Shown in pieces: positions 378-42,429 of a DNA stretch of 64,000 nucleotides. Position numbers and translations under genes: made by a program. This DNA comes from Branchiostoma lanceolatum (taxonomy: Eukaryota > Chordata > Leptocardii > Amphioxiformes > Branchiostomatidae): assembly GCF_035083965.1 (NCBI RefSeq), contig NC_089731.1, forward strand, positions 10,204,001 through 10,268,000, read 5' to 3'. The notes beneath the pieces are model-generated. The model did no database searches and was not told the DNA's origin. It saw only the letters and a list, made by a program, of their open reading frames with translations. Positions within the stretch are counted from its first letter, which is position 1. The number at the start of each line of letters is the position of its first letter.

Positions 378-669
378 CATTTGACGCAAAAGTTCGGACT
401 GCTAATTGGTGTGAGCTACCGTAAGGAGATAGGAAGTCAACATAGTGTCCGTGACACAGTAGTAAGGACATTTTGGCTAGTAAACAAAACTCTCCAAGTC
501 TCTCCTAAAATCTCGTATACCCAATTTTATGTTAAGCCTGGCATCTAAGTTGCAATCGGGGATAGGCCAGTAGAACCAGATTTTATTTTCAAACAATTTT
601 GATTATTGTTGGCGAAGTTACGGGGTCGTGGAACTCTGGTTATCCCAACTTTTGTGTGTCTCTCACAAG

Positions 670-1004
670 GCCAGCAGGAGTACCTGGCCACTGTAGACCG
701 TTACGGCTTCTACAAGGTCCGTGTGTCGGGAAACATGTCTGCCGTTAACATAAAGGCCGCTTGTGAGGCGGCGGGGATGAGGTATGTATCTCTCAACTCA
801 GGGAGAGACAGGAATTCTTGTAACAGCCACTGGACCCAGGGCTGCGTCAAGTACGACGACGGCGGCGTCAGCTGTGTTACCCACGAGGTGCTCTCTGATA
901 TACTATGTGGAAACAAAGACAAAGTGCCTGTTGACGACACCTTTGTGATCAACCACTGGGATTTCGGATTGATCCGCTTTTACCGATGCTGTGTGAAACA
1001 TTAA
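670..1004 (+). pseudogene. Orphan inverted exon of the cysteine-rich secreted domain
   Basis: After an acceptor-like CTCACAAG at 662-669 the plus strand encodes about 95 residues clearly homologous to the minus-strand exon at 1009-1412: shared DRYGFYKV.VSG, CEAAGMRYV, CVKYDDGGVSC and a C-G-N-K/T-D-K core with matching cysteines. Similarity fades near 950; the last third of the domain is replaced by unrelated residues before a stop at 1002-1004. No signal-peptide exon exists on the plus strand between 1 and 670. The exon is therefore probably a duplicated, inverted and truncated fragment. A functional exon of a gene starting left of the window cannot be excluded. Confidence 0.6.
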
Positions 1005-12300: not shown

Positions 12301-13338
12301 GACCCTAACCGTCCGGGCCGCAGCTGTCTGGACATCCTGTTCCGCGGGGACAGCCGGGGGGACGGCATGTACTGGATCAACCCTAAAAACAGGTCAGGAA
12401 ACTAGGAGAACAACATGATAAGTGGAATAAAAATTTAAAGAGCGAATGAGTAAAAGAGAAGAAGAATGTGCAAAACAAATACAAGCTGGAGCCGAAGAAG
12501 TATTTTGGAGATTAAGGCTTGATACCTTTTCAAGTAAACGTTCCGTTTGATCTTGTTGAAATCGTATTTCTGATGAAATGGAGATTTTCATGTAATCGTT
12601 ATGTATGAGCTTTCTTGACAATGTATCTTTTCGTTATTTTTGCGAAGCTTTTTCACCAAAAGTAGACTGGAAGACTGAGATTTGCTGCCTACTGTCGTTC
12701 TGACGTTATTGTCTATTTCTCCGCCAGAGCTGACAACAGGAACGCCTTCCGTGCCTACTGCGACATGACCACAGCAGGAGGAGGCTGGACTCTCGTTGCC
12801 AAGGTAACGGACGACTACAGTTGGGTGTGTCCGGAGAAGCAGGGGCAGTCATGCGCAGAATCAGTGGTAAGGACATTTTCGACCAATCCCTAGACTTGTT
12901 GATCCTTGTGATGTAGAGATCGGAATAAAGCTCGAATATTCCACCTCACAATCCTCAAATACTTGCTTCATTTTTACCTTCCGTCCGTCCGTCTTACATC
13001 AGAATAGCTATGTTCTGTTACATCGTTCTATGATCTTCTATTAGTTAATTGACTGAGAAATACATATATGACAAATTGTTGTGTGAGCGTTGCACGCAGC
13101 GTTAACATTGTAACACTTAGTAGACCACCAGGTACGTACCTTTCAGTAAACGCCCTATTCTCTGCCCCTCCAGATAGACCCGATGCAGGCGAACCTGTTC
13201 CACGAGATCCACGAACGCGACACGGTCCCGCTGACTGCCGGGATAGGACAGGACACGGGCGTGCACCTCAAGAACAACATCATCAGGGACATGTTCCTGC
13301 TAGGTCTGTGTCAGCATATTTTTATCCCATTGCTTCTG

Positions 13339-15116: not shown

Positions 15117-16394
15117 CAGTCATCAGATTCTTCGTTATGTATATTTGTCAGGAAGCATAGATGATCTTTCTATATGTAAAATTGTGATTATAGGCAGCTG
15201 ATGGTGGAGTTCTGATTTTGTATAATTATTTCTTGATATGTGTATAGTATGTCATATATGGCAATGTACATGCTTCTTGTTTATTCTTGATGTTATCAAG
15301 GTTGTTGATTGTGTGTTGAGGCACTGTGGAATGTTCTTATCTATTGCGCAAAAAGCTACATTGTTGAGGTTTCATAACTTTTGTACCAAACCATGTTAGA
15401 AACCACCGCTAGCACAGGTAAACGATATTCTTCAATTGTTGTTGTTGTTGCTATGGTTCTACTATATTTTCTTCTTGTTGGAACGTCGATGTAATCAAAG
15501 TAATGTGTATATACTCTTGATCATTGTCATTATAGTGGTTTGATAGATATCGAATTACACGTAAGAACATGTTTACAACAGTCAACTGTCTTTGATTTTT
15601 CTGTCACCCGACACGACATGTTATAACTGCGATTGCATGTTTAACGACTTAGAAATTGATAGTCGGTATTCCCTTGAAAACACACGTATAGTTTCCGCAA
15701 CATCGTTTTAAAACAGAGTATGCATAGATTTCACAATGGGATTGACGTGCTTGCAATGTTCACTTTGAAAAAAATCCGCAGTTTGGGGGAAAATGGGGAT
15801 AAACCTCCACTCGTATCAGATTTATGAACCCCAAAATGAAATAACTGAATCTGTTCATAACGAATGAATGGAGACCTTTAATGTACATTGCTGTGGTAGT
15901 CATACATTTCACAAAAGGACATAAATCTGAATCAGAACATTTCCTAAAATCTAAGCCGTCCTTACCAAGGCTAATGCCCCCTCTTACAGAGGTTATGAAA
16001 ATCCAACCAACCGCCGCTGATTAATTGTGGCGGTGAAGAAAGGATAGCCTGAAGCTTAGTCGACAGTGTGCTAATCCACACTGATGTGAGTGACGTGTAG
16101 TTCTGTCGCTTTGATTAATCAGAAAGCAGATGAATCGGTCGGGTCTTTTGTTGTTGATATTTTGTGGCCTTTGCTGCGTTTCTACGGCTTTCTCTAATGA
16201 TTTGCTTTATCTTGAGGCTACCCTTCCATCACGCTTTGATGGCCTTTCCACCAATTACTCTGATATTTTCACGGTTTAAAAAAGACTTTATGTGAGGGCG
16301 GTGTCCAAGAAATTGTAGTCAGGATAGAATTCTTGAGTACGACTGCAGCACGGTTTCAGTCGCTGTCTTTAACACCAGACAAATCATAACTCAC
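15117..16394. other. Intergenic, nothing recognised
   Basis: AT-rich DNA with many stops on both strands. No repeat or gene recognised between the fibrinogen-like gene and the GPCR. Confidence 0.4.
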
Positions 16395-17567
16395 ATGCGG
16401 ATCTTCTACACCTGTGGCCGAATGATGATGTGCCGAGGTAACTATGTTGGTTGGGCGCTAGTGATTCTCGTCACTACAGTACGGTACGTTGGGGTAACTT
16501 CGGCTTCTGGACTGCGCTTGAACGTTTCAAAGCAGACCGGGGACGACGAAACGGGCATTTTTCACAACTCAACACTGCGAAACAGTTCATCTGAGAACTG
16601 TCCCTCTTCAGCAGCTACCAACAGCTCCGTGGTAGATGTAAACATCACTTCAACCGTCCAGAAATGTCTCCCGAAAGAGTCTGATGTGTACTCTAGCGAA
16701 GCTGTAGCTGTGAGGTGCATTACTCTGTGTTTAGGCGTCTGGTCTGTCGTGGCAAACAGCCTCCCACTAGCAGCCATCATTAAGCAGGAACATCTCCACA
16801 CGCCCGCCTACATCCTCACGGCTAATCTGGCAGCCAGCGACGTCTTGAACGGCATAGTCTTTGTGATCGCCTGTAGTCTGTTTTTTTTCTCCAATACCGT
16901 TTACTCCAATGTTATCATGCGTCGCGTCCGCTTCACGAGTATCTTGCTCTCCGGGTTGTCCTCGGCCTACAGCCTGCTGGCCCTGACGGCTGAGCGCTAC
17001 TGGTTCATCGTGCATGGAATGACCTACGTCAACAACGTCACCAACGACAAGTGCAAGGTCGTGATCATGGTCGTCTGGATGTGGTCTGTACTGCTGGCGA
17101 TACTGCCCAACTTCGGCTGGTACTGTGCCCTACGAACGCAGGAAGGATGCGATCCATTTGGTGGAGCACTATCCTACAGTTACAAGGTCGTTTTCCTTGT
17201 GTCCGTTTTCATCCCGATAGCGGCAATCGTCCTTTTAAACACGGGGGTGTTCTGGTGCCTCTGGAAGCATGTGAACGCCATCGCTGCACAAGAAGCCACC
17301 GTGGGTGCCCCGCCCAGTATCAACCGAAAATCCGCCATCACCATCGTTCTGATCACCATCGTGTTCCTGGTGGGATGGCTGCCGCTTCTCTTCAAAATGG
17401 CCCTGTTTACTCACGACCACATTTCGGTGGCCAAAATGTTGGTCTTCGTGATCATGAACTCCGCCATCAACCCTGTGATCTACGCATTTCGTCTGCAGGA
17501 GGTTCGCCGTGGTGTTACACGGCTCTTCGTCAACAGTAACGGAAACGCTATCCTGCCTGGAAATTGA
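16395..17567 (+). CDS. Intronless class A GPCR, lysophospholipid/cannabinoid-like
   Basis: A 390-residue single-exon receptor. The N-terminal tail is long (about 105 residues), begins with a possible signal sequence, and has several N-glycosylation sites (NVS, NST, NSS, NIT). TM1 contains VVANSL, TM2 LAASD, TM3 ends in the ERY form of the DRY motif, TM4 has W..SVLLAILP followed by FGWYC, TM6 has FLVGWLP and TM7 NSAINPVIY. The usual cysteine at the top of TM3 is absent, and extracellular loop 2 holds two cysteines (GWYC..EGC). That pattern is known for the melanocortin/EDG/cannabinoid/adenosine group, and LP..GW.C is typical of lysophospholipid and cannabinoid receptors. The ligand is unknown. 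The C-terminal tail is short. An upstream ATG was chosen because the signal-like segment follows it; a start at codon 11 or 12 is possible. Confidence 0.88.
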   Translation: MRIFYTCGRMMMCRGNYVGWALVILVTTVRYVGVTSASGLRLNVSKQTGDDETGIFHNSTLRNSSSENCPSSAATNSSVVDVNITSTVQKCLPKESDVYSSEAVAVRCITLCLGVWSVVANSLPLAAIIKQEHLHTPAYILTANLAASDVLNGIVFVIACSLFFFSNTVYSNVIMRRVRFTSILLSGLSSAYSLLALTAERYWFIVHGMTYVNNVTNDKCKVVIMVVWMWSVLLAILPNFGWYCALRTQEGCDPFGGALSYSYKVVFLVSVFIPIAAIVLLNTGVFWCLWKHVNAIAAQEATVGAPPSINRKSAITIVLITIVFLVGWLPLLFKMALFTHDHISVAKMLVFVIMNSAINPVIYAFRLQEVRRGVTRLFVNSNGNAILPGN

Positions 17568-21122: not shown

Positions 21123-22617
21123 ATGAAGGCCATCATAGTCTTCTTGTCCGTTATTTCCATTGGATTTGCCATTCCAAACGATGTCTCTATGCGTGCTGTA
21201 AATGGGGATACGTGCCAGTACACGTTCGTGGTTCCCCATGACGTGGCGCCCCCCACCCACTCCTGCTCCGACACAGAGAGTCTGCGAGCTGACCTGGAAA
21301 GTCTTCGGAACACCGTTGCAGGGCAGCAGGTAAATAAAACAAGATATCAAGCGAACGAAAAACGAGTGTTTTGTTCCATTCATAAGTCAGAAATTGACTA
21401 ACACTTAGGTAGACGCGACGAGACTGCGGTAAAATATGAGTGTTAGCTGAGACGACTACCTAGTAGTCTAGTCTAGATAAGAATGATTGAAGAATATACT
21501 GTAAGAAGTTGTGGTAAGGGCTTTGTCGTTGGTGACGACTTAGAAAATGGATAAGTGGTGTGTATTTTAGAAAGAAACTTAATTTTGAAATAGCCCTGGA
21601 AGTTTTTCAGAATATCGAAGAAGAACGAAAATAGCGGAGTATGTAAACATCTTATGTCAACTTTCCTTACAGTCAACGATCACGGACCTAGAGACCCGCC
21701 TCTCCCAGATGGAAACCCTCGTTGCTGCCACTCAGACCCTGGCTAGCCTGGACCACGGTCTCGGTACCGAGCTCAACCCAGCATCCTCCTGCCTTATCAT
21801 CATACAGAACAACCCCTCCAGCCAGGATGGCGCCTACTTCCTTATCGGGAAGGACGGAACCATCTACCAGACCTACTGCGACATGACCACGGCCGGAGGC
21901 GGCTGGACGCTGGTCTCCAGCGTGCACGAGGACGACATGTACGGCAAGTGTACGGCCGGGGATCGCTGGTCCAGCACCCGCGGGAACAACATCAACTACC
22001 CCGGCGGAGATGGCAACTGGGCCAACGTACACACCTTCGGCTCCATGGGGTCGGCCACCACCGACGACTACAAGAATCCAGGCTACTTCAGCATCAGCGC
22101 CTCCAACGTCATGCTGTGGCACGTGCCGAACAACGTGCCACCGAAAGAGTACAAGACCGCCTCCTACCTACGGTACCGCACCTCCAACGGTTTCCTCGAG
22201 GACTACGGAGGCAACCTGTACTCTCTTTTCAAAGATCACTTCCCAATCGGCTACAACTTGGGCACGTACACCCACGACAACGGCCCGGCCATCCCCATTG
22301 TGTACGAACAGGGCAGTAATCATCTTGTCGAGTCACTGTTTCCCCCGAACATTGATTCTCGCAATGAAGCCATTCCCGGGTTCATACAGTTCCGGGTGTT
22401 CACCGGTAGAGCAGCGTGCCTGGCTGTTTGTCCGGGCATCAACTTTGTTGGACCCGATGCAGAGCACGTGTGTATCGGTGGAGGTGGATATTACCCCCAC
22501 CATGCCGCTAAGTGCGGTGACTACGCCTCCAAAGACTGGGATGGCTACGGCACCGGGGTGGGGTGGAGCTCGAACCAGCTTGTCACGGAGTCCGTCATCA
22601 TGTTCTTTTATCGCTAG
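21123..22617 (+). CDS. Intelectin-like secreted lectin 1, two exons
   Basis: Exon 1 (21123-21329) encodes a signal peptide (MKAIIVFLSVISIGFA) and a TCQYTFVVP...THSC segment. Exon 2 (21673-22617) carries a short helix and a full intelectin domain, residues ~109-383, total 383 aa. Family signatures: YCDMTTAGGGWTLVSSVHE, CTAGDRWSS, DDYKNPGYF, LWHVPN, YLRYRT, GFIQFRVF, EHVCIGGGGY and a C-terminal FFYR. Vertebrate intelectins bind microbial exocyclic 1,2-diols through bound calcium. Aligned to human ITLN1, E262, H263 and W288 are kept, N243 is Gly, E274 is His and Y297 is Trp, so specificity may have changed. Unlike its two neighbours it lacks the long Glu/Arg-rich coiled coil. It belongs to the tandem array with the genes at 23209 and 26924. 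Confidence 0.92.
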
Positions 22618-22751
22618 TTATGCTAGCGTGCTGAAGAGGCCGGGAAACCTCCATACGATTCAGCAAGTTAGGAAAACGACCATAAAGTCCAACCGATCGA
22701 TATCCAGAATAATATCCCAAATGTATCTTTGAATACCTGTTTTCAGGAAGT

Positions 22752-22757
22752 AATAAA
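22752..22757 (+). terminator. Poly(A) signal of intelectin 1
   Basis: AATAAA 135 bp after the stop codon; similar spacing in the neighbouring paralogues. Confidence 0.6.
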
Positions 22758-23208
22758 ATGACATAGAAACAACTCTGCTATCTTTTTTATTTCATATGTT
22801 CCAACCCTGTGTGGAATTTTCTAGAATGTCGGTTTCAGCTATGACTCTTGGGATGCCAGTTAGTGTTATAGAGTCTAAAGCCAAATGTACATCATAGGGT
22901 AGTCGATATATGGAGTTAAAATCACACGTCATAGCTCAAATGTCACCATACCAAAAGGGGACCATAACAAGGCTGACCTTTGGAGTAGTGATCAGGGTAC
23001 ACACTTGTTGTGACTTGAATACTTACTCAGCCATGTTGACAACTAGCACCTGACCAATTAGAAAACGAGATGGCTCACCTCAACTTTATCTTCCCATCAG
23101 TGATCATTGGTCACAACTTATCGATTTTTTTAGAAGCGCGATTGTAAAACCGTGGTGCAAGACGTCTTATTCCAGCTACATATTTTTGTTTGTTTGTATA
23201 CACCAAAA

Positions 23209-24938
23209 ATGATGAGGGCCATCATAGTCATCTTAGCCATCCTTTCTGTCGGATTTGGCATTCCAAACGATGTCTCTATGCGAGCTGTAAATGAGGGTAC
23301 GTGCCAGTACACATTCGTGGTTCCTCGTGACGTGGCGCCCCCCACCCACTCCTGCTCCGAAACTGGATACCTGCTAACTGACCTGGAAGATCTACAGGGC
23401 ACCGTTGAGGGACAGCAGGTAAATAACAATGGTGCTGGGGCACGATTCGTATTTTATAATCTATCAAGACCCTTATGTCGATTATATGATTTTATTTGTA
23501 GTAGGTACACACACAGACACAGATATAGGGAAAATTAACGTCATAGCAGATGTCATCATTAATTGAGACTAATTTAGCGCACATGTTTGTTAAGTATTCA
23601 TTTACATACAAAGATAATCCTTCTTCAGATAGAACCACACGTTGTGCCGTTCTGATTCATGACACTCACCATTTTGTGGGTTTTCCTTAAATTAAGTACC
23701 TCCCAATTATGTTTATCTGTGAATTGAGTATACAATCAGGAACATCATCAGCGACATCACTAAAGCAACTTTCTTAGCCTAATTATGGTGACGCTGTAAG
23801 TATTACTATACTGTTGCCTTCCCGTTCTCTGCAGGCAGTAATTGATGCGTTCTTAGAGGAACAAAGAAACCAGACAAGGAAACTATTGGAGCTTGAGTTG
23901 GACCTGGAGCGGGAGAGAGCCAGGCGTGCGGAGCTGGAGTTGGAGCTCGAGAGAGAGAAGAACAATCGCCAGACCAACGACTTGAACCTCACCAACGTTG
24001 TCAACGCCCTGGATAATCGTCTGTCACATGTGGAAACTATGGTCGCGGCTACTCAAACTTTAGCTAGCTTGGACCACGGTCTCGGTACCGAGCTCAACCC
24101 AGCCTCCTCCTGCCTTCTCATCAAACAGAACAACCCCTCCAGCCAGGACGGCGCCTACTTCCTTATCGGGAAGGACGGAACCATCTACCAGACCTACTGC
24201 GACATGACCACGGCCGGAGGCGGCTGGACCCTGGTCTCAAGCGTGCACGAGGACGACGTATATGGCGAGTGTACGGCCGGGGATCGCTGGTCCAGCACCC
24301 GCGGGAACAACATCAACTACCCCGGCGGAGATGGCAACTGGGCCAACGTGCACACCTTCGGCTCCATGGGGTCGGCCACCACCGACGACTACAAGAACCC
24401 AGGCTACTTCAGCATCAGCGCCTCCAACGTCATGCTGTGGCACGTGCCGAACAACGTGCCACCGGAAGAGTACAAAACCGCCGCGTACCTACGGTACCGC
24501 ACCCCCAACGGTTTTCTGGGTGTCTATGGAGGCAACCTGTACTCTCTTTTCAAAGATCACGTCCCCATTGGCTACAACTTGGGCACATACACCCATGACA
24601 ACGGTCCGGCCATCCCCATTGTGTACGAACAGGGCAGTGATCATCTGGTGCAGTCAATGTTGCCTCCGAATGTGGTTTCATTGAGTGAGGCTATGCCCGG
24701 GTTTGTGCAGTTTCGCGTCTTCACTAACAACGGAGGGTGCCTGGCCGTTTGTCCAGGTGTGAACTACGTTGGACCGAACGCAGAAACAGTGTGCATCGGT
24801 GGAGGGGGGTACTGGGCTGAAGGTGCATACCATTGTGGTGACTACCCATTGAAGGACTACAACGGCCATGGCACCGGTGCGGAATGGAGTGCAAACCAAC
24901 TTGTCACTGAGTCCGTCATCATGTTCTTTTATCGCTGA
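23209..24938 (+). CDS. Intelectin-like secreted lectin 2 with coiled coil
   Basis: Exon 1 (23209-23418, 70 codons; a second ATG follows at once) gives a signal peptide and TCQYTFVVP...THSC. Exon 2 (23835-24938) adds a strongly charged coiled coil (residues ~77-121, repeated ELELELERE type heptads) and the intelectin domain (~163-437); 437 aa in all. The domain is nearly identical to the other copies up to about YEQGSDHL, then diverges. Against human ITLN1, N243, E262 and E274 are kept, H263 is Thr (AETVCIGGGGY), W288 is Tyr and Y297 is Trp. Loss of the calcium-coordinating His is unusual. The secreted protein probably oligomerises through the coiled coil and N-terminal cysteines. Confidence 0.92.
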
Positions 24939-25055
24939 AAAGGTCGATTCAGCGACTCAGAAATAAGTCATCACCATACACACCAACTGTTTTACATGTA
25001 AATCCGGAAAGTGCAAAATCCCAATAGTAGCTTTGAATAGCCGCTCTCATCAATC

Positions 25056-25061
25056 AATAAA
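25056..25061 (+). terminator. Poly(A) signal of intelectin 2
   Basis: AATAAA 118 bp after the stop codon. Confidence 0.6.
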
Positions 25062-25155
25062 TGTATCAAGAAGCCCCTTTACGAGCTCTTTTTAAGTCTA
25101 TATTTTCTAACTCTGTGTGCAAGTCCGTAGATGTCAGCATCAGCGTAGGGACCTC

Positions 25156-25442
25156 CACTGTTGCCTCCCGAAGCTATTTCGAGAAATGAAGCCGTCCCCA
25201 GATTCGTGCAGTTTCGCGTGTTCACTAACCACGGATCCTGCACTGCGGTTTGTCCAGGCGTCAACTTCGTTGGTATCAACTCAGAGCACGTGTGCATCGG
25301 CGGAGATGGATACTTTGCGGAAGGAGAACCTAGGCAGTGCGGTGACTACGCCTCCAAGGACTGGGACGGCTATGGTACTGGTGTGGGCTGGAGCTCCAAC
25401 CAACTTGTCACAGAATCCGTCATCATGTTCTTTTACCGCTGA
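25156..25442 (+). pseudogene. Orphan C-terminal intelectin fragment
   Basis: About 93 codons in one open frame, from LLPPEAISRNEAVPRF to the FFYR end and stop at 25440-25442, with its own 3' flank and AATAAA at 25550. No 5' part, coiled coil, signal exon or obvious acceptor precedes it; the homology starts abruptly. It covers exactly the variable ligand-pocket part and, unlike the intact copies, keeps N243, E262, H263, E274 and W288 equivalents (Y297 is Trp). It is the left end of a ~1.15-kb segmental duplicate of 29666-30806. It could be a decaying copy or a gene-conversion donor; no stop interrupts it. Confidence 0.75.
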
Positions 25443-26106
25443 AAAGTCTGGAAACACCCCCAACTTCCGTCAGTTAACTACACTATGATGATAAGGATGT
25501 TTGGAAGGTACAAGTTTCCAGGTACAGCTTCACATATCTGCTTTCAACCAATAAAACCAAAACAACAACCTTGCGACTTTGTATATTTCTTTCAGGTACA
25601 TGTAAATTTCCTCTTTCAGTTCATAGTCATCTGAGACTGCCAATCTTTTGGCCGTGCTATGAAACATGCACTGTTGATGATGAATATATACAAAATTGAA
25701 TCCTTGCCTCTGAGCTTAGAATCCAATTGACGACCTATCAGATTAAACAGATTTAGTGCCATATGACGAGAGCTAGGTGTAATTACCGCTCAGTCGTCAG
25801 TACAGAAAAATACCGTCATAATATAAACTTTCTCTTCAGTTTGGTGGTTAAATTAATAGCGCCCAACTAGAATTCCTTTCATAAGACATGTACATTTACG
25901 ATGCAGGACCCCATCTAGTACCTATTTGTTATACTCTAAATGTTACATATGCTATGGCACACGCGTTGTTCCCTCGTTCAAAGGTCGTATGAATTTTCAT
26001 AACTTCACAGCGCCTCCTGGCGTCTCCATCGCGAGTAACAGCTCCTTTCAATGTTCCTTCGATTCTCTATATACAGATCAAGCCAGCAGGTCGGACATGT
26101 TTGTCG

Positions 26107-26250
26107 TCACTTGTTAATCATGATCCGAATGAACCCCTTATAGCAGACCTGTCCGTCCCCCTCCACATCAGCCTCCTCCATCATCTCATCAACCTCCTCC
26201 TCCGCCATCTTGTCTGCGATGTTCATCATCACGTGACGAAGGTCTGGAAC
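26107..26250 (-). pseudogene. Dead copy of the calmodulin-like last exon
   Basis: On the minus strand it encodes [18 protein letters not shown], a helix [10 protein letters not shown] and the EF-hand 4 loop [12 protein letters not shown] then FIRIMINK and a stop. The live exon at 30604-30748 has CYEEF; here both Glu are replaced (Lys, Gly), removing the position-12 calcium ligand. The acceptor CAG of the live exon is CAA here. The partner exon 2 is missing from this copy. It is a pseudo-exon carried by the segmental duplication. Confidence 0.85.
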
Positions 26251-26308
26251 GTTGAGGAGAAAAACGTCATATTTCAAAACTCTCGCGTTTCTTTGCATTC
26301 AAAATGAT

Positions 26309-26595
26309 GCTCAACCCAATTGAGGTGTGTAACATCTCGGGGTTGGCTACTTTAGGAGTTATATGCCTTGAAAAAGGCCTGTGACAATTTCTGTCGAACA
26401 CGCATTTCGAACCACTCAGTGACCGCAGGTAGCCTTGCGAGACCGTGGCGTTTTCAGAATGGTCCAATGTTACATACAATGTAACGTTAACGTTACATTG
26501 CAAAAACAGGAACTTACAATATGTAATGTGTATGGCACGTTAATTACTTTTCATTAGACTTATGGATGTTGACCGTTTCAGATATTGATAAAGAA
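26309..26595. other. ~290-bp insertion inside the duplicated block
   Basis: Absent from the paralogous position near 30806. It contains a perfect 24-bp palindrome at 26477-26500 (half site CAATGTAACGTT) and no coding capacity. Terminal repeats were not found, so its nature is unknown. Confidence 0.5.
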
Positions 26596-26762
26596 TTGTC
26601 TTTAGTAAAGGACTTTCCTTTGATTCTAGTTTCTAAGGATAAATATTTACTGAAAAAGGTTAACGTATTGGCACAATATTTATCGTAGGCAACAGCTGTA
26701 CAACTTGTACATTTTCCCTTCACTCCACTTACCACTTACCCAACCATGGTGACGGCCAGCAT

Positions 26763-26778
26763 TTGACCAATAGGAAAC
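26763..26778 (+). promoter_or_regulatory. Conserved CCAAT-box block, intelectin 3 promoter
   Basis: TTTGACCAATAGGAAACC about 155 bp upstream of the ATG at 26924, in a block of over 200 bp nearly identical to that upstream of intelectin 1. Confidence 0.5.
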
Positions 26779-26923
26779 CAGGTAGGTTACAACCTCTTTA
26801 TCTTTCCATCAGTAACCATGGCTACAAGTTACGTATTTCTTCAGACGTACAATTGTAAGACAACGGGTCGAGACATTTCATCCCTCCTTCAACAAATTGT
26901 GTCCTCTCATTTTCCGAAGAACT

Positions 26924-29900
26924 ATGAAGGCCATCATAGTCTTATTGTCCGTTATATCCATTGGATTCGGCCTTCCAAACGATGTCTCTATGCGTGCTGT
27001 AAATGAGGATACGTGCCAGTACACGTTCGTGGTTCCTCATGACGCGCCCCCCACCCACTCCTGCTCCGAAACTGGATACCTGCTAACTGACCTGGAAGAT
27101 CTACAGGACACCGTCGAGGGACAGCAGGTAAAGAACAATTAATTTGGAGAATGCATATAGAATCTTATCATCTTTGAATTAAATTGAATTGAATTGAAAT
27201 CAATGTTGATACAGTCAAACCTGCCTAGGCGACCACCTTTTCAACGCGACCACCTGGCCATGGCGACCGCTTTTTCTCGGTCCCGAAAATTTTCCCCATA
27301 GGCACAAGCATTAAGCTGCCTGCCCAAGGCGACCACCCGTCCAACGCGACCGCGACCGCCAAGAATTGGGACCGCACAGAGCACAATCCCTGTCCATGGC
27401 GGTCGCCTAATTTTCAAGTGTGTGGTGACATCAGATCATTTTGCTGTCGGATTTCACGGAAATGTTTTCAAGACTTTAAAGGACAAAAATAAGATCAAAA
27501 ATATATGGAGTAGCAATGTTATACCATCGATTCCTCCATGAAGTGTTTTAATAAAACGTTCCCCCTATAAACATTGTAAAGACAAATGTTTGTGATGTTG
27601 TTGTGCCTATCGTAATCTTATAGTTTAACGTGAACTCAGTTCCGTTTAAACTCAATTTTCAAAACGAATACGTAGTGCATGGCGTCAAAAAGTCAGATTT
27701 CACAGAAATTACTATCTATTTCTTGTATTTTCAACAAAAATGTGTCTGTGTCTTGCTAAATTCCGCCAAAAATGACTTCGCGGCGGGCAAAACATCAGGC
27801 GAGAAATGTTGTTCCTTGGTCCCGACGCCATCTTGGATTTCGGGCGGCCCGGATTTGGCGTACCGCTGACCTTTCTAAAACACGATGATTTTGTGTATGA
27901 ACATTTACGAATACTCTAGTTATTGGTGAAAATCAAAATTCTTATTTTCTTTTTATTTCCATGAATCTCACAAACCTTTATTGGACGCTGTGCGTTCTGC
28001 TGCACTGACTTACCCTTCGATGCGGTAGCACAGAGCTTCGCGGCGCGGCGAAATCACACCGTTAACGCGTTCCGTTTTCATCTTTTAGTTGTCAGATCGA
28101 AAACTTTTTGACCCTTTCATCCAGCGGTCGGCGACCCAAAAAAGGCTGGGACCAGCAGGCGTTCTCTAGGGATCTGTCTTAGGCCTTAAAACTTCGATGA
28201 TGTGCGTGTGTGTGTGTACTATTCAATGTAACGTGTGAATGCGGGAGGGCGCTGCGAGATCATCGAGGCAACCATCGTTTTGTAGTCAAAATTATGACGA
28301 AAATTTGTACACGATGTAGTGGTATACAATATTACAGCGATAACGGAAAATGTAATTTTTGTAGGATCTTTCTGTCAATGAGAATTGAAGATGGTGAGGG
28401 TCATGCTGTCTAAATTCACATAATTTTCCATCATTTACGTACTGTATTTGAAAACCTCGACCTGGAAACATGTGAGTGGAATCCTCTTCATGGCGACCAC
28501 CTGTCCATCGCGACCGTTTTTGCTCGGTCCGCCGGGTGGTCGCCTTGGGCAGGTTTGACTGTACATACGTTGCTAGTTAACATATATTTACATAAAAGAC
28601 AAAGGAGACGATACAGTAGAAGGCGTCATTAATTGAGACAACTTTAGCGCAGCCATTTAGTGTACATTCAAAGATAATCCAGATGAACCCAAATGTTGTG
28701 TCGTTCTAATCTATATGCACACAGTTATATGGGAACTTTTGACTTTCAAAACGGAGTATACAACCACGGGAACATAATCAATAACATCCTTGAATGTAGC
28801 TTTACATGAAACGGTAAGCATACATTTGTCTCCCGTTCTCTACAGACAGAAATCAATGCGTTTTTGGAAGAACAAATGAACCATACGAGAAAACTATTGG
28901 AGCTTGAGTTGGAACTGGAGCGGGAGAGAGCCAGGCGTGCGGAGCTGGAGTTGGAGCTCGAAAGAGAGAAGAACAATCGTCAGACCAACGACTTGAACCT
29001 CACTAGCGTTGTCAACGCCCTGAACAATCGTCTGTCACATGTAGAAACTATGGTCACGGCTACTGAAACATTGGCTAGCCTGGACCACGGTCTCGGTACC
29101 GAGCTCAACCCCGCCTCCTCCTGCCTTCTCATCAAACAGAACAACCCCTCCAGCCAGGACGGTGCCTACTTCCTTATCGGGAAGGACGGAACCATCTACC
29201 AGACCTACTGCGACATGACCACGGCCGGAGGCGGCTGGACGCTGGTCTCCAGCGTGCACGAGGACGACATGTACGGCAAGTGTACGGCCGGGGATCGCTG
29301 GTCCAGCACCCGCGGGAACAACATCAACTACCCCGGCGGAGATGGCAACTGGGCCAACGTGCACACCTTCGGCTCAATGGGGTCGGCCACCACCGACGAC
29401 TACAAGAACCCAGGCTACTTCAGCATCAGCGCCTCCAACGTCATGCTGTGGCACGTGCCGAACAACGTGCCGCCGGAAGAGTACAAGACCGCCGCCTACC
29501 TACGGTACCGCACCTCCAACGGTTTCCTGGATGGCTACGGAGGAAACCTGTACTCGCTGTTCAAAGATCACTTCCCAATTGGCTACAATTTGGGCACGTA
29601 CACCCACGACAACGGTCCGGCCATCCCCATTGTGTACGAACAGGGCAGTGATCATCTGGTGCAGTCACTGTTGCCTCCCAACGTTGTTTCACGGAGTGAA
29701 GCCATCCCTGGATTCGTGCAGTTTCGGGTCTTCAACTACGAGAGTGCCTGCCATGCTGTTTGTCCGGGCGTCAACTTCGTCGGTTACAACTCCGAGCACG
29801 TGTGTATCGGTGGAGGTGGATACTGGGCGGAAGGTGCGCCTAAGCAGTGCGGTGACTACGTCTCCAAGGACTACAACGGCTATGGTACTGGTGTGGGCTG

Positions 29901-29952
29901 GAGCTCCAACCAGCTGGTCACGGAGTCCGTCATCATGTTCTTTTACCGCTGA
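26924..29952 (+). CDS. Intelectin-like secreted lectin 3 with coiled coil
   Basis: Exon 1 (26924-27127, 68 codons) encodes a signal peptide (MKAIIVLLSVISIGFG) and TCQYTFVVP...THSC. Exon 2 (28846-29952) encodes a coiled coil (RKLLELELELERERARR onward) and a full intelectin domain; 436 aa in all. Against human ITLN1, E262, H263 and E274 are kept, N243 is Tyr (RVFNYES), W288 is Tyr and Y297 is Trp. The intron (about 1.7 kb) is much longer than in the paralogues because it holds a 1.35-kb inverted-repeat DNA element. It converges on the calmodulin-like gene. Confidence 0.92.
27212..28561. mobile_element. Non-autonomous DNA transposon with TA target site
   Basis: The left end CAGTCAAACCTGCC (27212 on) is matched by GGCAGGTTTGACTG at the right end (28548-28561). 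The inverted similarity extends inward through GGCGACCACC and a second CG-rich GCGACCG..TTTTTGCTCGGTCC block. A TA dinucleotide flanks both sides, as for Tc1/mariner and pogo-like elements. Small internal open frames (one cysteine-rich at 28210-28413) resemble no transposase known to me. It sits in the intron of intelectin 3. Confidence 0.75.
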
Positions 29953-30048
29953 AAAGTCTGGAAATATCTCCAACTTCCGTCAGTAAACTACATAAGGATA
30001 ATTGGAGCGTGCAAGTTTCCAGCTACAACTTCACATACCTGCTTAACC

Positions 30049-30054
30049 AATAAA
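30049..30054 (+). terminator. Poly(A) signal of intelectin 3
   Basis: AATAAA 97 bp after the stop codon, about 30 bp from a facing minus-strand signal at 30083-30088. Confidence 0.6.
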
Positions 30055-30082
30055 ATCACTGAAGCAACAACCTTGCGATTGG

Positions 30083-30088
30083 TTTATT
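30083..30088 (-). terminator. Possible poly(A) signal of the calmodulin-like gene
   Basis: AATAAA on the minus strand, about 516 bp beyond the stop at 30604, the first good match in that direction. The duplicate copy near 25570 has lost the motif. Confidence 0.4.
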
Positions 30089-30603
30089 TCTTTCAGGTAC
30101 ATGTACATTTTCTCTTCCAGTTCATAGTCATCTTCGACGTGCCAATCCTTTGGCCGTGCTATGAAAAATGCACTATTGATGATGAATATATACAAAATTG
30201 AATCCTTGCCTCTGAGCTCAGAATCCTATTGACGACCCATCAGATTCAATAGATATAGTTGTTATATGACGAGAGCTAGGTGCAATTACCACTCGAGTCG
30301 CCAGTACAGAAAAATACAATGATAACATCAACTTTCTCATCACTTTGGTGGTTAAACTTATAACGCCTATCTAGAATTCCTTTTATAAGACAAGTCCATT
30401 AAGATTGCAAGATCCCATCTATTTGTTATATTCTGAATGTCACATATGGTATGGTACACGCGTTGTTCCCTCGTTCAAAGGTCGTATGAATTTTCATAAC
30501 TTCACAGCGCTACCTGGCGTCTCCATCGCGAGTAACAGCTCCTTTCAATGTTCCTTCGATTCTCTATATACAAATCAAGCCAGCAGGTCGGACATGTTTG
30601 TCG

Positions 30604-33176
30604 TCACTTGTTAATCATAATCCGAATGAACTCTTCATAGCAGACCTGTCCGTCCCCCTCCACATCAGCCTCCTCCATCATCTCATCAACCTCCTCCTCC
30701 GCCATCTTGTCTGCGATGTTCATCATCACGTGACGAAGGTCTGGAACGCTGAGGAGAAAAATTGTCCTATCTTAAAATTGTCGCATTTCTTTGCATTCAA
30801 AATGATAAAGGACTTTAACAAAAGTTTTCTTGTTTCTAGTTTCTTAAGTTAAATATTTACTGAAAAATTTCAATGTATTAGGACATGAAAAAAGACGCTT
30901 ATTCCCAACTGTCTTACCTAATGAAGCCGTTGCCCTCCTTGTCAAATACCCGAAATGCCTCGCGCAGCTCGTTCTCAAGCTCCTGGTCGGCGTCCATGGG
31001 TCTCGTGACCAGGGCAAGGAACTCGGAGAAATAGATCGTTCCCGTCCCGTCTGTATCCACTTCGTTCAGCAGCTCCTGATGATAAAGAATTGATGTCATT
31101 GAATGATACGCAAGATTCAAGTTTTACATCTTACATCCCCGGCATCGCTGCGGCCGATCGAGTTGGCAAAGTACTCAAAGAATTTCATCGACAAAAACGA
31201 ATCTTTTAAGCTTTGTGTGTTTTGTTGTCGTTTTAGTAATTTTTGTACGTTTTGAATGATATTCCCATTATAAAGTCAAGGGTAACACGAATCCAGTTTA
31301 GGACGCAGCGACGCCGCCAGCAAATCGTAATATGTTCCTCTAGATATTTCGGGTCTGCTCAAGCTACGATCTACAAAATATATTGCTATTTCTAATTTTC
31401 TTTCCTCAAAAGATGTCGCAGGATTAATCGCGGGCAACAGCTGTACGACTTGTACATTTTCCCTACATTCCAGTGTTTACCCTTGATTGTCACCCTACAG
31501 TAGACGGTCAACAAACGGTTAATCGTCATCGCTAAAATCCGCCTCCGTCTCATACAAACGTTAGTGATTGGCCGCGACGATACACGTGATAGTACTAACA
31601 CTACATGCCAAACACTCCGTAGAGTTCATAGGTGGGTCAGTGTGTTACTTAGCCCCATGTACCATGTACAAATTACCTATCTACTCGTCAACGTAAAAAC
31701 GTTCAAACTGACACTTGACAAGTAAGTCTGCGTTGTTACAAGCCATAACTTACCCGTCTTCTTTTTAGTAATAACACCAGGTGGCATTTTTCCAAGTAGG
31801 CTTTCTGGGCTTTTGTAACGATCCTGAATGTAATGAGCCGTAGGTCGACTATTGATCATTCAAGCGGGTAGATTTGTTGTATAGACCTTAAATACCCCAT
31901 GACTAATGCCACAAAGAGAGAGAGATAATACAATTGATGTCTACATTACTAGTATGAGTAAGACAGATTATTTCTATCCCTGGCAGTCACTTACGGAAAA
32001 TAGAGCCAATTTTCTGAACAGCTGTTATAATAAAATTTTGATGAAGTACTGACTGACTGACTATTACTCCGTATTATCAGATTTTTGCTACAACAAACAG
32101 CGCTGTAGTTTACATCGATAAGTAAAATTCAATGTAACAGACAAAATTTTGCCTATTCCAGAAAATTAGTCTAACATATTCTTTTCATTTCCCTGCCTTC
32201 GGATACTTTAGAACTCTGTTTCTGTATACGTGCCCCCCCCCCCTCAACTTTCTCTGCCCCGAACACCTGCTTGTTGAGGTGTAAATCCGGTCGTACAACT
32301 TCTTATAATGGCAAGGTCTGTCAGCAATTATCTTTCGCGAAAGGTGATTGCACATCGTTTTAATCATAGATTTCACGCTTAAGTACATTTAACATTTCCC
32401 ACAAAAGATATATGTACTGTGACAAGCCCTCCCCTATCTGCTTTAAAGTACAATGAGATTACACCTGTCACGATTTCCTGTGAAAGAAAGATGTTGTCTG
32501 TGCCGGGGTGTTTCGTTCCATTTCCCCTTATCCAGTCTAGCTTCAAAGTCAATATACGAAACAAAAGATCTTTGCGTTACATGCCGGCACACGTTCGTGT
32601 TTTCTTGCCAGGCTTGATTCCTGTACTTTGTTAGATCGTCACCGGATGGCTTACGTGTCCCGTCACATTCATAGGTATGTTGCCAAAATAAATAAGGCTG
32701 CAGTGTCAAAATTCTCTTAACCATGCTAACAGTGACAATAACATGTAGCAGCAAGCACGAACCTGAAAACGTGATATTGCTCGAGCAGACAATGGACAGA
32801 GAAGTCTACATGGAGGGCCTAGGGGTGAATCTTGACATATGCTGCCTAAACTCACCTGGATTTCAAACTCGGTAGGGTCCATCCCAAGTGACCTCATAGC
32901 AGAGCCCAACTCCTTAGCGCTGATGGCACCGTCCCTGTCTCTGTCAAACACGTCGAAGGCATCTCTCCATTCTTGAATCTCTTCTTCACTCATTTTGTCG
33001 GAGTCTGCGCCGTGTGAGCTTCCCCTGGCAGCGGAGGACCTGCGAAGACTAGTGCGGATACCAGAGAAGGACAGTCGGCGGTGGTGGTGGTGATGTTTAC
33101 CGGCAGCCGTGCGCTCTGAACCGGCGGACTGTTCTTCAATAACTGCAGGGTCGTGCCCTGTGTCCCTCCCGGCCAT
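30604..33176 (-). CDS. Calmodulin-like EF-hand protein with basic N-terminal extension, three exons
   Basis: Exons 33176-32856, 31075-30918 and 30748-30604; phases agree, giving 207 aa. Residues 1-62 are an extension with a five-His run (28-32) and Arg/Ser-rich [17 protein letters not shown], not seen in calmodulin. From about 62 it follows calmodulin: EF1 loop 78-89 ([12 protein letters not shown]), EF2 114-125 ([12 protein letters not shown]), central helix [17 protein letters not shown]3 152-163 ([12 protein letters not shown], position 12 Asp instead of Glu), EF4 188-199 ([12 protein letters not shown]). It is therefore likely a four-site calcium sensor, with EF3 possibly weakened. It is divergent from true calmodulin, so not the essential CaM gene; the extension may direct membrane or target binding. 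An upstream start is possible. Confidence 0.85.
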
Positions 33177-36100
33177 ACCTGTTCCTCAATGCTGACACAA
33201 CTGTGCCATACAGATGTGCACGTTTACTGGACTACTTTACAGCCTACTTTAGCCCGCTTTCCTACCCAACGTTCTGCTCCAAAAAGCACCAGACCACGAG
33301 TAAACACCGTGAGAACCAAACCGTCCACTAGCTGACACGGGCCTTCAGCTATTTGCCCCCGGCAGTTCAGCTGGTGGGTACAATATATGACGACCAAAGC
33401 TTGCTTCATCCCAGTTGACAAATCTATGAAGGGACGGTTCAGTAACTGTTGGTTTGTTGCGTGAGCTATAATGGAAAATGGACAAACTGCCGTAATAACA
33501 ATTAAAGGTCCTCGACCTCATACCTTCGCCAAGCAATGTTGTCCCATTACAATGCAAAGAACATCTTACCAGCATGATTTATTTGAATTCATGAAGGATA
33601 CGCCATCAATAATCACGAAGGTATTATATAGTTAGTTGTCTAATTAATTATGCAAATTACTTCCTGATTTGTATTTTTCCTATCTACTGATGTCATTTCC
33701 AACCAAGTTACATTTGTACTTAATATGGAGTATGTCATCTAGCACAATTGAAATACAACTTTTAAAGAAAATTTAAGTCCTAATTTGCATAATTTACACA
33801 CCATTACGTTGTTTTTCTACAGTTACAAAAATGTACCTACAGGTCAAAAGTCATGAAAATTCATTGAACCCTTGATTTATCCTGTTTCAAAGTATGCAAC
33901 TGAAACGCCCCTGCATGTCCAAAGAGAGCTGCTAGAGGGCCTAAACTTATGTCACTTCTTCACGACCACAACAGCTATCTTCCATCAAAAACTTGCAAAT
34001 GTAACCATAGCTTGCCTAAGCCTTATTTGGTATGTAACTGAAAAGTATATGTAGGACAGAGGGAGTCTGAAGATCGATATCTTCCTCGCACCACTGCATC
34101 TATGTTTCTGAACAGTCCCTAACTCTTTAACGCAAGAGCTAATAACCTGAAAGGACACTGATCCACTTTTATCTGACACCTTTAAATTTGGAAGGGCGTG
34201 AAGCGGAAAGCATGGATTCGAGGAAAAGCATTACCATATTTTACTGTGACGTCGCGTTTGACTATACAAAGAAATGTTTTTGATAGATGGCTAGGGCGCT
34301 TAGGACTACATGAAACGTCTTGAAAAATAATAACCGTTGCAGTATGCGATAAAGAATCCGTTTTGAATCAGAGGGGGTGGTTATGTGGGTCATGGGTCAT
34401 CTACAAAACTTCATGGAAAAGTTCTGCACTGTTTCCTGTCTCCGAAACAGGTGCATTAGGAAACGGCTGCAGGTAGTGTTTGCTAGGCTCGTGCTGGAGT
34501 ATTTTTCCATTCAACATATCTGAGAAGAGGTGGTTAATCAAGAGAATTTCTAACCGGTGAACTACAGTGTATAGTCCCTTCCTTCATAGTGATAATACGG
34601 GATAAGTAGTTGATATGCCATCTGATTCGGCTAGACCCTAGCCTTGAACCACCAAACTGACGCAGCTAAAGTCTCCCTGGTAACCCAGTAGGACACTAGC
34701 TGCTCTACACACAGCCATGAAGGCCGGGAAAATCAGACTGGTTGTTTAAGCTGGACAGTAGTTTGTAATAAGTTTTTGTTTTGTTGCTATCTCCACTCAA
34801 TTGCTAATAACTTATCGATGCATGGTGCCTACATGAGTCTGCGTTCGAGATAATCGTTTCCTTATCCTTCGACGCCTCCATAACCAATTACGCCAGGAAC
34901 TGTTTTCATGAGAAAATATCAGCTGGTGGCGAGAGAGTTATCCTGTGTATCCTGAACTTTGATGAAGCACTGGAACCCGCCCCCCTCCCCCCACACGTGC
35001 CATGCCCACTGTGCCTCCCTCCAAGATTAAACTCTATATTTGTGCTTTATGTGACCAAAGATTGTTGTGGCAGAGTTAGAGTCAGAGTGACTAGTGTGAT
35101 GTACGTTAGATTAGGATGGTCACAGCTGTTTGTGACCGAAGCTAGGGCTTATATTGGCTTAAAGCCGCACAAGGCCGATGTCACAGATGACCTTGCCGGT
35201 ACTCTATTAGCCTTTATTAATGTCAAGGGACATGGCACTACTGATATGTCGGACAGAAATGTTTCAGATACTTCACCGTGCATGTGGCAACCGCAGTGGA
35301 AAAGTCAGGAGTTTATATTTCCACAAGGAAACTTTGAAAATAATCATAATCGATTGGAGAAATCACATTTCCCAATTAAGACAGAGGTACTAAGATAGAA
35401 AAAAGAAGATTCGAATTTGAAGAAATGACAAGAAAGGATGAACAGTTGCAATCAAATTAAGGAAAAAGACGTTTTCCGAAAGAAAGGTTTAGCAACTATT
35501 GAACCAACCTTTATACACCCATACATGGTCATTTCTGATCTGTCCCTTGAGTATTATCCAAACAACACTTCTAAAATATTGATGTAATTCTTCTCGTGGG
35601 TCAAAACGTTACTTCTTTATAGTGAAGGTGCAATAGCGTTCATAAAATTGGGAAGTCAATCACGCAATTGCTCCCATAGGAAGTACAGCTGGGGTTATGA
35701 TTATTTTAGAAACCAAAGAATTATTATTATTATTAGCCTTGACGATGACGGTCACTAACGTTACGTGAAGGTGCGTTATGCTCAGTGACTCCAAAATCAA
35801 CAACTTGACCGCAGTATGTTAACAACTCCATCGTGAGCTGTTTCACAGTCACTGGTCTTCGTAGAGCGTGAAGAATCTTGGGTTTGCAGGACGTGACGAC
35901 TGAAGACCCCTTGTGGTATGTAGCCCAAATTGAGAGCACTAATTCCCTATTAGTATTAGCACCGAGGAGCGATATACAAACGACTGACAGTATGTAACAC
36001 GTGTAAACACAATGCGGTTTGTAGAGACAGTAGAAATGTGAACTCTTTTCTAGATCTCCGTAGTCAAATATGCACGCGACACGACAAAAAGGGGGAAATG

Positions 36101-40085: not shown

Positions 40086-42429
40086 TCACACAGTGAAGGA
40101 CAAAGTAAGAGCACACAGCAGGGAGAACAGCGATGCAACCAGCACCTGTCCCGCGCCGATCTGTCCGGCGGGGTTCAGCAGGTTGCACACGTCCTCGTCG
40201 TCCAAGTCGAAACGGTTGACGGTCTCCAACTGCTGGTCCCTCAGCTTTGGGGGCGCTGCGCACACCACGTTGTTGACGTCCAGGAGGTCAGGGTTCATGA
40301 CAGGTTCATCCATCCAGTCGCGCAGCCACGACAGCCGACAGTCGCAGATCCACGGGTTACCTGGAAAATCAACGCCTCTGTCAGAGCTGTTCAAATACTA
40401 GTAAACACCTATATCACAGAAACAATCGCCATGAAGCAAATCTAGCTGGCACATAGGGCAGCAAGTTTCCTTGCTGTTTCAGTAGCAGGTATCTTTTTAC
40501 AGGGAGGGGTCCCTAGCATGCTTGAGGCACCTCCTCCAACATGGGACCCCATTTTACGTCCCTTCCAAAAGACAGTGCAGCCCCAACTTAGATGCCGTTA
40601 CTCCGGGAATTGAACTGGGGTCTCCAAGTTACCAACTAATTGGAACAAAGCAAATATCAATGTTGGGAGGCTGCATCATTTTCTGACTTCCTGGCTATTC
40701 TAACATGCAGTCTTTTAAACAATTTGTGTGTCACAAAATAAAGGAAAACACATGAGAAGTTTTTACAACATGCCAATTGAGATACAGAAGTTCCTACAAA
40801 TCATTGTTGAAATCCTCAATGGAAAGAATTTTTGAAACAATGTTTGGAGTTAACAAACAAAACAATCAACAGCTATTGCATGTCTCCAAAGCTATTTTTA
40901 CACCAAAGGGCCCCTTAACAGTGACACATCCAGGTAAACTAGTTCCTTACCTGATAGTGTGACCAGAGCCAGGCGGTTCAGGTTCTCCAGGGCAGCCTTG
41001 GGCAGACGAGAGATGTTGTTGTTGGACAAGTCCAGACGCTGGAAAAGAAAAGGACAACATTGTCATCGCAGAGGACTGTTGCTCCTGTTTGTGTTCATCT
41101 GATTTTCATAATTCCAACAGCAGTCTGCACTTTCTTTCTTTCTTTTTTTCAACTGTAAATGATTAGATTTTTGTTTGCCAAGCTTCTTTATCACAAAATT
41201 AGATTTTGCTCTGTTGTTTCCAATTTATATACAAGTATTGTATCTTTTGATAAACATGTAGCAGAGTGAATTACCTGACAATTAAGTTCACAATCATGTA
41301 CATTTGAGGTTTAAGGCTTTAGGGTTTTCCCCACTTTTCTGCGCACAGAATGACCATTCTGTGTGCAGAATGACCATTCTTTGAATTCAGCAAACAAATA
41401 CAGGCCTCATGGCAGCCCTGAGGCTGAATTAACAGGCTCGTTTACAATTAAGACATCATTAACTTCTTTGCCAGTCAACCTTAATGCAATTCTTAAACCC
41501 AGAACTTACAAACTAAAAGGACTACAGGTCATATCTTGCAACATCCTTGACTAACCTGTAACTGTACAAAGTCTCGGAAGGTTTCCTCATGCAGGGTGGT
41601 GAGCTTGGGACAGTCCCTGATCTCCAGCCGCTCCAGGTTCCTGTTGACCCCCCGCAGAGCGTACGCCTCCACCTCCACCAGGTTGGGCTGCCCGCTCAGT
41701 GAGATGTTCAGGACGGAGGTCAGCCCCACGAAGCTGTCGTTGCCGACGTTCATGATGTCGTTGTTGTTGAGGTGGAGTTCGATGAGGGTGTCCAGACTGC
41801 GGATGGCCTGCGACGGGATGCTGGTGACGAAGTTGTCGTGCAGGTACAGCTTCTGAAGTGTGGCCAGGCCCTGGAACACCGTTGTCGGCAGGTTCACCAT
41901 ACGGTTGGCGTTCAACTTCAGATCCCTCACGCGTTCCAGGCCGCTGAACGGCGAGCCTGTGACGGTTGCGATCTGGTTATCGTCAAGGTGCAGCTCCTCT
42001 AGTGACACCATGTTTGAGAACATCCCATCGGTCAGGGCTGTCAACCTGTTTTCATTCAGCTTCAGGACCTTGACATCATCCAAGCCATTGAAGGCTCCGT
42101 CCGGTATGGTGGAGATCTGGTTTCCTGTCAGGATAAGCTGTTCCAGGGAGTTCAGGTTTTGGAAGGCGTTGGCGGTGAGTTCGGTGATGGCGTTGTTGCT
42201 GAGGTCGAGCGAGAACGTGTCGGCAGGGACGTCGGTAGGTAAGACGTCGAGGCCTTTTCCCTGGCAGTCAATTATTCTGTGATCGATGCCCGCCAGAGGT
42301 ACGATGGTGCATGTACAGGCACGCGGCCCATAATCATTGTCAGGACAGTCTCTACTCCCCGGTAACTGTGCCGAGGACAGCAGGAGAACAGCTGACAGAA
42401 CCAGGAGACGAAGCATGGTTGGTTTAATC
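40086..42429 (-). CDS. GPI-anchored leucine-rich-repeat protein, three coding exons
   Basis: Coding exons 42416-41556, 41038-40951 and 40360-40086 (407 aa). An acceptor just upstream (42430-42431) implies a 5' untranslated exon. Residues 1-16 are a signal peptide (MLRLLVLSAVLLLSSA). A cysteine-rich LRRNT (CPDNDYGPRACTC) follows, then about ten LRRs of 24-26 residues (pattern L..L.L..N.I..L....F..L), the tenth encoded alone by the 88-bp exon 2, then an LRRCT (NPWICDCRLSWLRDW ... VVCAAPP). The C terminus is hydrophobic (GQVLVASLFSLLCALTLSFTV) with no cytosolic residues, suggesting GPI attachment. The layout resembles lamprey VLRs and their amphioxus relatives, but also many other extracellular LRR proteins. 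Probably a cell-surface recognition or adhesion protein. Confidence 0.88.
40495..40645 (-). mobile_element. Candidate tRNA-derived SINE in LRR gene intron 2
   Basis: On the minus strand, TTAGTTGGTAACTTGGAGAC precedes a B-box-like AGTTCAATTCCCGG; the body includes GGCTGCACTGTC and GGAGGAGGTGCC. No target duplication found. Confidence 0.45.

Follow-up and report, generated by a model that had tools for sequence, protein, structure and literature searches.

Intelectin Gene Clusters

Intelectins (X-type lectins) read microbial sugars at mucosal surfaces. The array of intelectin genes described here lies in the lancelet Branchiostoma lanceolatum, within a window of 64,000 nucleotides (nt) on the forward strand of NC_089731.1 (10,204,001–10,268,000) to which all coordinates below refer, and comprises three genes, c1, c2 and c4, together with a 3′ fragment, c3f. 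Between the three genes, silent divergence is low over the front of the lectin domain and rises abruptly over the segment that contains the glycan pocket.

Intelectin clusters with varying pocket residues, as in the mouse (PMC8324875), and expanded intelectin families, as in tunicates and placozoans (PMC6321704), are already known from the sections of these reports considered here. For the mouse Itln cluster, the sections covered state that gene conversion between recent copies is expected, report a McDonald-Kreitman signal for Itln1, and list eight carbohydrate-binding positions of ITLN1 (243, 244, 260, 262, 263, 274, 288, and 297), although the text counts seven (PMC8324875). In the part of a study of mouse Itln2 considered here, W288A accompanies a change of ligand (beta-Galp in place of beta-Galf; PMC12800186), and the structural calcium motif of intelectins is given as HENxxxGxCTxGD in a further report, likewise drawn on in part (PMC9682848). 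Lineage-specific expansions in genomic clusters reach 22 genes in tunicates and up to 31 in Trichoplax sp. H2, again according to the sections covered (PMC6321704).

The lancelet array consists of three intact, two-exon genes arranged in tandem on the forward strand and one 3′ fragment, and was probably shaped by partial concerted evolution. In this reading the front part would have been homogenised time and again through gene conversion and/or unequal crossing-over, exchanges would have stopped near codon 199, and the pocket segments would be older lineages under overall purifying constraint. The pocket residues would have changed faster than their neighbours, reflecting either functional divergence of sugar specificity or relaxed constraint, and the predicted products would be secreted lectins with a common scaffold and differing glycan sites. 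An earlier note on this DNA had counted four units, three of which are the intact genes, whereas the unit at 25.2 kb (c3f) proves to be a truncated duplicate of the c4 3′ end.

Divergence along the Lectin Domain

Lectin codons 1–296 were counted from the T of TQTLASLDHG or TETLASLDHG, located at 21730 in c1, 24051 in c2, and 29062 in c4. The roughly 7 and 20 amino-acid differences that had been noted between c2 and c4 are exact for codons 1–200 and 209–296, respectively, and the corresponding counts are 11 and 27 for c1–c2 and 8 and 21 for c1–c4. Positions variable among the three genes amount to 7 of 150 in residues 1–150, 11 of 61 in residues 151–211, and 29 of 85 in the last 85. Silent divergence (dS), estimated by the method of Nei and Gojobori (NG86), follows the same course, being 0.238 (c1–c2), 0.188 (c1–c4), and 0.195 (c2–c4) over codons 1–211 vs 1.29, 0.83, and 1.31 over the last 85 codons (permutation p = 1e-4 for the difference in silent divergence in each of the three pairs). 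A rise of dS in the last 85 codons, which had been named beforehand as the result that would speak for a difference in age rather than for selection, is thus largely what was found (0.19–0.24 to 0.83–1.31).

The position of this rise was sought among the 239 degenerate codons whose amino acid is the same in c1, c2, and c4; 62 of these vary silently. Silent variability is 0.15 over the 179 codons before and 0.58 over the 60 codons after a sharp boundary between codons 198 and 199 (permutation p = 0.0005), with a support interval of codons 151–205. The low-dS codons 1–198 correspond to 21730–22323 in c1, 24051–24644 in c2, and 29062–29655 in c4, and the high-dS pocket segments (codons 199–296) to 22324–22614, 24645–24935, and 29656–29949, all on the forward strand. 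A codon model (GY94/F3x4, custom script) fitted to the three genes with a split into codons 1–198 and 199–296 gives a neutral-rate step, back over front, of 3.41 with part-specific codon frequencies (p = 7.8e-7) and 4.95 with common frequencies (p = 1.3e-11).

The ratio of replacement to silent divergence (omega) changes less. NG86 values for front and last 85 codons are alike (0.17 vs 0.16 for c1–c2, 0.13 vs 0.21 for c1–c4, and 0.11 vs 0.11 for c2–c4), and their bootstrap intervals overlap for every pair. In the codon model omega is 0.059 in the front and 0.167 in the back part (p = 0.010 for equal omega), or 0.071 and 0.147 under common codon frequencies (p = 0.062), and a split at 211/212 gives p = 0.058 for the difference. 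The codon-based comparison that the earlier note had proposed therefore yields values far below 1 in both parts, in the ranges 0.11–0.17 and 0.11–0.21 by NG86. By a hand calculation from the codon model, the silent step makes up ∼54–69% of the log increase in replacement divergence and the higher omega the rest.

Conservation against more distant intelectins places the last 85 residues in context. Identity of c4 to XEEL and ITLN1, respectively, is 0.58 and 0.60 over residues ∼20–150, 0.50 and 0.36 over residues 151–211, and 0.55 and 0.54 over the last 85. Because its conservation is similar to that of residues ∼20–150, the back part is not inherently fast; it is unexceptional over long times and exceptional between neighbours, which fits different ages of the two parts. 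Since silent divergence jumps together with the replacements, the pocket part of c1, c2, and c4 is probably for the most part older than the front part. Protein-level counts alone (7 vs 20) can mimic positive selection when the parts of a gene differ in age.

Probable Homogenisation of the Front Part

Within codons 1–150, 125–128 of 137–140 degenerate codons are identical between copies, vs 79–81 expected from local codon usage, while the last 85 codons have a smaller excess (34–42 of 57–62 identical, 22–26 expected). GC content at third codon positions (GC3) is 0.83–0.87 in the low-dS part vs 0.58–0.71 in the back part, and the higher value is what GC-biased conversion would give. A front tract of 570 nt is 94–96% identical between copies, and its left edge in c1 is sharp; just before the tract only 29 of 57 nt (c4) and 32 of 57 nt (c2) are identical to c1, whereas inside it the counts are 545 and 536 of 570.

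The closest relative of c1 changes along the gene. The c1 promoter is 87% identical to that of c4 and 73% to that of c2; the c1 intron has no similarity above single-base shuffles to either c2 or c4; identity over codons 1–190 is 94–96%; and the c1 3′ flank is 73% identical to that of c2 and not above shuffles when compared with c4. Homogenisation of the 5′ part, as proposed in the earlier note, fits the data in that dS is low up to codon ∼198 in all three pairs and then steps up 3.4–5.0-fold, but single conversion tracts were not recovered in run tests (see below).

Residues of the Glycan Pocket

The pocket positions were read from our own alignment with ITLN1 (chain index + 7 = ITLN1 number). 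In the order c1/c2/c3f/c4 they are G/N/N/Y at 243, R/N/H/E at 244, D/N/N/N at 260, H/T/H/H at 263, H/E/E/E at 274, and W/Y/W/Y at 288, with Glu at 262 and Trp at 297 in all; the residues previously listed for 243, 263, 274, and 288 agree with this reading in all four units. Six of the eight positions vary among c1, c2, and c4, the constant ones being E262 and the Trp at 297. Identity to ITLN1 over the eight is 3/8 in c1, 4/8 in c2, 5/8 in c4, and 6/8 in c3f, so that no copy carries the full ITLN1-type pocket; this pocket varies within the intelectin family and is not strictly defining.

In this small sample the pocket codons change faster than their neighbours. Omega is 0.567 in the eight codons and 0.122 in the remainder of the last 85 (p = 0.0001; c1, c2, and c4), omega = 1 is not rejected for the eight in the three genes (p = 0.16), and their variable fraction (6/8) exceeds that of the segment (29/84; Fisher p = 0.018). 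With c3f added the two omega values become 0.678 and 0.185. By pair, pocket differences number 6/8 for c1–c2 (p = 0.008), 5/8 for c1–c4 (p = 0.017), and 3/8 for c2–c4 (p = 0.26); only the pairs with c1 are significant, and c1 therefore drives the enrichment. Relaxed constraint in c1 would give the same signal. A rise of dN/dS confined to the last 85 codons, with sites above 1, was not found; dS rises there too, and the omega of the segment is 0.147–0.167. The site model M2a is no improvement on M1a for the three genes (p = 0.68) or with c3f (p = 0.365).

The 3′ Fragment and Its Flanks

The fragment c3f (25156–25442, forward strand) comprises the last ∼95 codons, in a frame open from 25149 to 25442, and lacks a promoter, exon 1, and ∼200 lectin codons. 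It forms the beginning of a duplicate (25156–26308) that is 87% identical to 29666–30806 at the 3′ end of c4, and the c2-type 3′ flank continues up to 25144, just before it. This arrangement would be explained if a c4-like unit had been duplicated in tandem and had then lost its 5′ part. Gapped similarity of the duplication extends to 26761 and 31513.

Travelling with c3f is the final exon (25947–26246, reverse strand) of a convergent gene whose EF-hand (calmodulin-like) identity was judged by eye from the translation. The counterpart of this exon lies at ∼30.44–30.74 kb, and the two are 95–100% identical per 100 nt, identity reaching 100% along 26147–26246, whose match lies near 30.7 kb. The 5′ exon of the gene behind c4 (32709–33185) matches EF-hand models.

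The affinities of c4 change along its length. It is near c2 through codon ∼198 (dS ∼0.2, promoter 74%, intron 76%) and near c3f from codon ∼202 (3′ flank 89%), and the 3′ flanks of c2 and c4 have no similarity above shuffles. A distance of 10 nt separates the silent-site break (29656) from the point where the c3f duplication has its left edge (29666).

Alternative Explanations

Several observations weigh against partial concerted evolution of the front part. None of six run tests of the GENECONV type for single conversion tracts, a check suggested in the earlier note, was significant (p = 0.064–0.72), although such tests have low power if all copies were homogenised together. Exon 1 (dS 0.22–0.31) and the c2–c4 stalk (0.29) are about as low in silent divergence as the front of the lectin domain; the low-divergence region is therefore most of the coding sequence, and it may be the pocket segment, not the front part, that is the outlier. 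Had the pocket segment merely escaped homogenisation, it should be no more diverged at silent sites than the non-coding DNA next to it, yet c3f and c4 differ at ∼20 of 64 silent sites vs 56 of 469 flanking non-coding sites (Fisher p = 1.7e-4). For c1 and c2 the silent count is 35 of 57, compared with 49 of 180 for the 3′ flank and 43 of 161 for the promoter; these two non-coding counts derive from local alignments, a procedure biased towards similar stretches. The excess could stem from constrained flanks, from coding sites that mutate more readily, or from old pocket segments having been retained or exchanged. The sample is furthermore limited to three genes, and their silent sites are near saturation.

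It is conceivable, if doubtful, that the pocket segment is passed on as a module of its own, in which old pocket types were shielded from homogenisation or entered by exchange near codon 199, conversion meanwhile renewing the backbone, promoter, and flanks. If so, the array would represent a slowly changing set of sugar sites carried on interchangeable scaffolds and c3f a stranded pocket module, and it would be new to prove that inheritance or protection of the pocket segments is separate from that of their backbones. Outright pocket cassettes, with the 3′ segment and downstream DNA exchanged or retained as a module on conversion-renewed backbones at a recurrent breakpoint near codons 199–203, are unlikely. 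They would agree with the excess of silent divergence over neighbouring non-coding DNA, with the change in affinity of c4 from c2 to c3f, with the closeness of the duplication edge to the break, and with the 10 of 19 2:2 sites in the 3′ segment that contradict a (c3f,c4) grouping. However, the conflicting sites form no tracts (13 of 18 possible switches among the 19 sites, p = 0.77), and saturation therefore explains them equally well; the break also has a wide support interval, and a plain tandem duplication followed by deletion accounts for c3f. Diversifying (positive) selection on the glycan pocket, which the earlier note had put forward, is rather improbable as the force behind the divergence of the last ∼85 codons. 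The pocket codons do stand out (omega 0.57 vs 0.12, with omega = 1 unrejected and 6/8 positions variable), and codon-model omega does rise from front to back, but dS rises 3.4–5.0-fold as well, omega of the segment is only ∼0.15, M2a is no better than M1a, and the enrichment depends on c1, where relaxed constraint is indistinguishable. NG86 omega peaks in exon 1 (0.33–0.51), which contains no pocket, and is higher there than in the pocket segment as a whole.

A pattern without any homogenisation, in which codon bias or exonic signals constrain the silent sites of the front part or these sites mutate more slowly, has little probability. The strong GC3 bias of the front part would be in keeping with it, as would the codon-model dS for the front (0.27–0.35), which is higher than the NG86 figure set beside it (0.15–0.20); the step nevertheless remains 3.4-fold with part-specific codon frequencies, codon agreement between copies is far above what usage bias predicts (with a smaller excess in the last 85 codons too), and exon 1 and the stalk, outside the lectin domain, are likewise low in dS. 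Least probable is an assembly artefact in which alleles or collapsed repeats were joined and c3f is a stray haplotype piece. The fragmentary state of c3f and repeat units alike enough to confuse an assembler are compatible with such an error, but non-coding DNA mismatches at 56 of 469 sites between c3f and c4 and the copies differ by 4–6% even in the most similar tract, which is much for alleles, and frames, splice sites, and stops are intact in all three genes. Partial concerted evolution remains the preferred reading, and the cause of the pattern, which is real, is mostly ordinary. A near-constant scaffold and stalk carrying an old pocket segment would supply matched proteins for finding the residues that determine specificity.

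Gene Models and Family Identity

In c1, exon 1 (21123–21329; 69 codons) encodes a signal-peptide-like start, as judged by eye, and an N-terminal part, resembles exon 1 of c2 and c4, and ends at the donor GTAAAT; exon 2 (21673–22617; acceptor TTACAG, stop TAG) encodes a short stalk and a complete intelectin lectin domain (XEEL E = 2.8e-100, ITLN1 1.3e-93). Exon 1 of c2 (23212–23418; 69 codons, donor GTAAAT) is an open frame with a possible alternative ATG at 23209, and its exon 2 (23835–24938; acceptor CTGCAG, stop TGA) encodes a coiled-coil-like stalk and the lectin domain (GGGWT domain E = 2.2e-16). In c4, exon 1 (26924–27127; 68 codons, open frame, donor GTAAAG) is followed by exon 2 (28846–29952; acceptor CTACAG, stop TGA), which again encodes a coiled-coil-like stalk and the lectin domain. 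The stalk is long in c2 and c4 and short in c1, the GT/AG introns measure 343 nt (c1), 416 nt (c2), and 1718 nt (c4), and the proteins have 383, 436, and 436 residues, those of c2 and c4 being 90% identical. The c4 intron contains an insert of ∼1.3 kb (27201–28572) flanked by inverted repeats (arms of 21–25 nt, up to 100% complementary), which resembles a mobile element with no evident coding part.

The c4 lectin domain (residues ∼103–380) was aligned end to end with solved intelectins, namely XEEL (9.6e-102), ITLN1 (6.9e-97), and lamprey serum lectin (4.7e-83). The model NF040941, for the fibrinogen-like YCDxxxxGGGW part, scored above its cut-off in all three genes (E 2e-15 to 2.2e-16), and a Pfam scan of the intelectin pieces assigned a family to none of the four. 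At the structural calcium site, comparison by eye finds HEDDMYGKCTAGD in c1 and c4 and HEDDVYGECTAGD in c2, close to the motif given above, with Asp in place of Asn. In the search for relatives, nine viral contigs matched over 21 residues only and one bacterial contig over 29, at a position near the fibrinogen-like GGGW region. A structure predicted for c4 exon 2 from a three-row alignment was not used, its mean predicted local distance difference test score (pLDDT) being 36.5 and only the N-terminal helix confident. Upstream of the array, a further short frame at 12747–12815 contains a fibrinogen-like motif, YCDMTTAGGGWTLV; the frame resembles the intelectins at 16 of 23 residues.

Other Features of the Window

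Ten neighbouring frames were scanned against Pfam and five matched a family. Among the features of the window are a rhodopsin-type receptor (7tm_1; 16296–17564), a leucine-rich-repeat protein (41532–42452, reverse strand), an RMMBL metallo-hydrolase exon (47930–48337, reverse strand), and a glycolipid transfer protein (59038–59625). Two frames with no Pfam family, 57061–57711 and 62156–62608, look by eye like diverged copies of one protein, and two convergent frames, 603–1001 (forward) and 1012–1464 (reverse), are similar in sequence by eye, also with no Pfam family.

Comparison with Known Intelectin Systems

Among the matches listed from the open-licence literature, no report of a front/back divergence split in intelectins was found, which is not proof of absence. 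The sections covered describe no such split in silent divergence for the mouse Itln1-6 cluster (PMC8324875), and the parts covered contain no analysis of front vs pocket divergence for the tunicate and placozoan expansions, which are clustered like the lancelet array (PMC6321704). As far as those sections go, the mouse cluster is, like c1, c2, and c4, a tandem family that retains its scaffold but varies at carbohydrate-binding positions from one paralogue to another; the lancelet array adds a 3′ fragment, the break near codon 199, and changes at calcium-site positions such as 260 and 274 (PMC8324875). As in the part of the intelectin-2 study considered, position 288 also varies here (W/Y/Y in c1/c2/c4), but unlike there, positions 243, 244, 260, 263, and 274 have changed too (PMC12800186). 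The lectin domain is homologous over its full length to those of XEEL and lamprey serum lectin, and the Trp at 297 given for both in the part of that report covered (PMC9682848) is likewise present in all four lancelet copies. The array differs from these two lectins in the long, coiled-coil-like stalk encoded by exon 2 of c2 and c4 and in pocket residues that differ between neighbouring copies.

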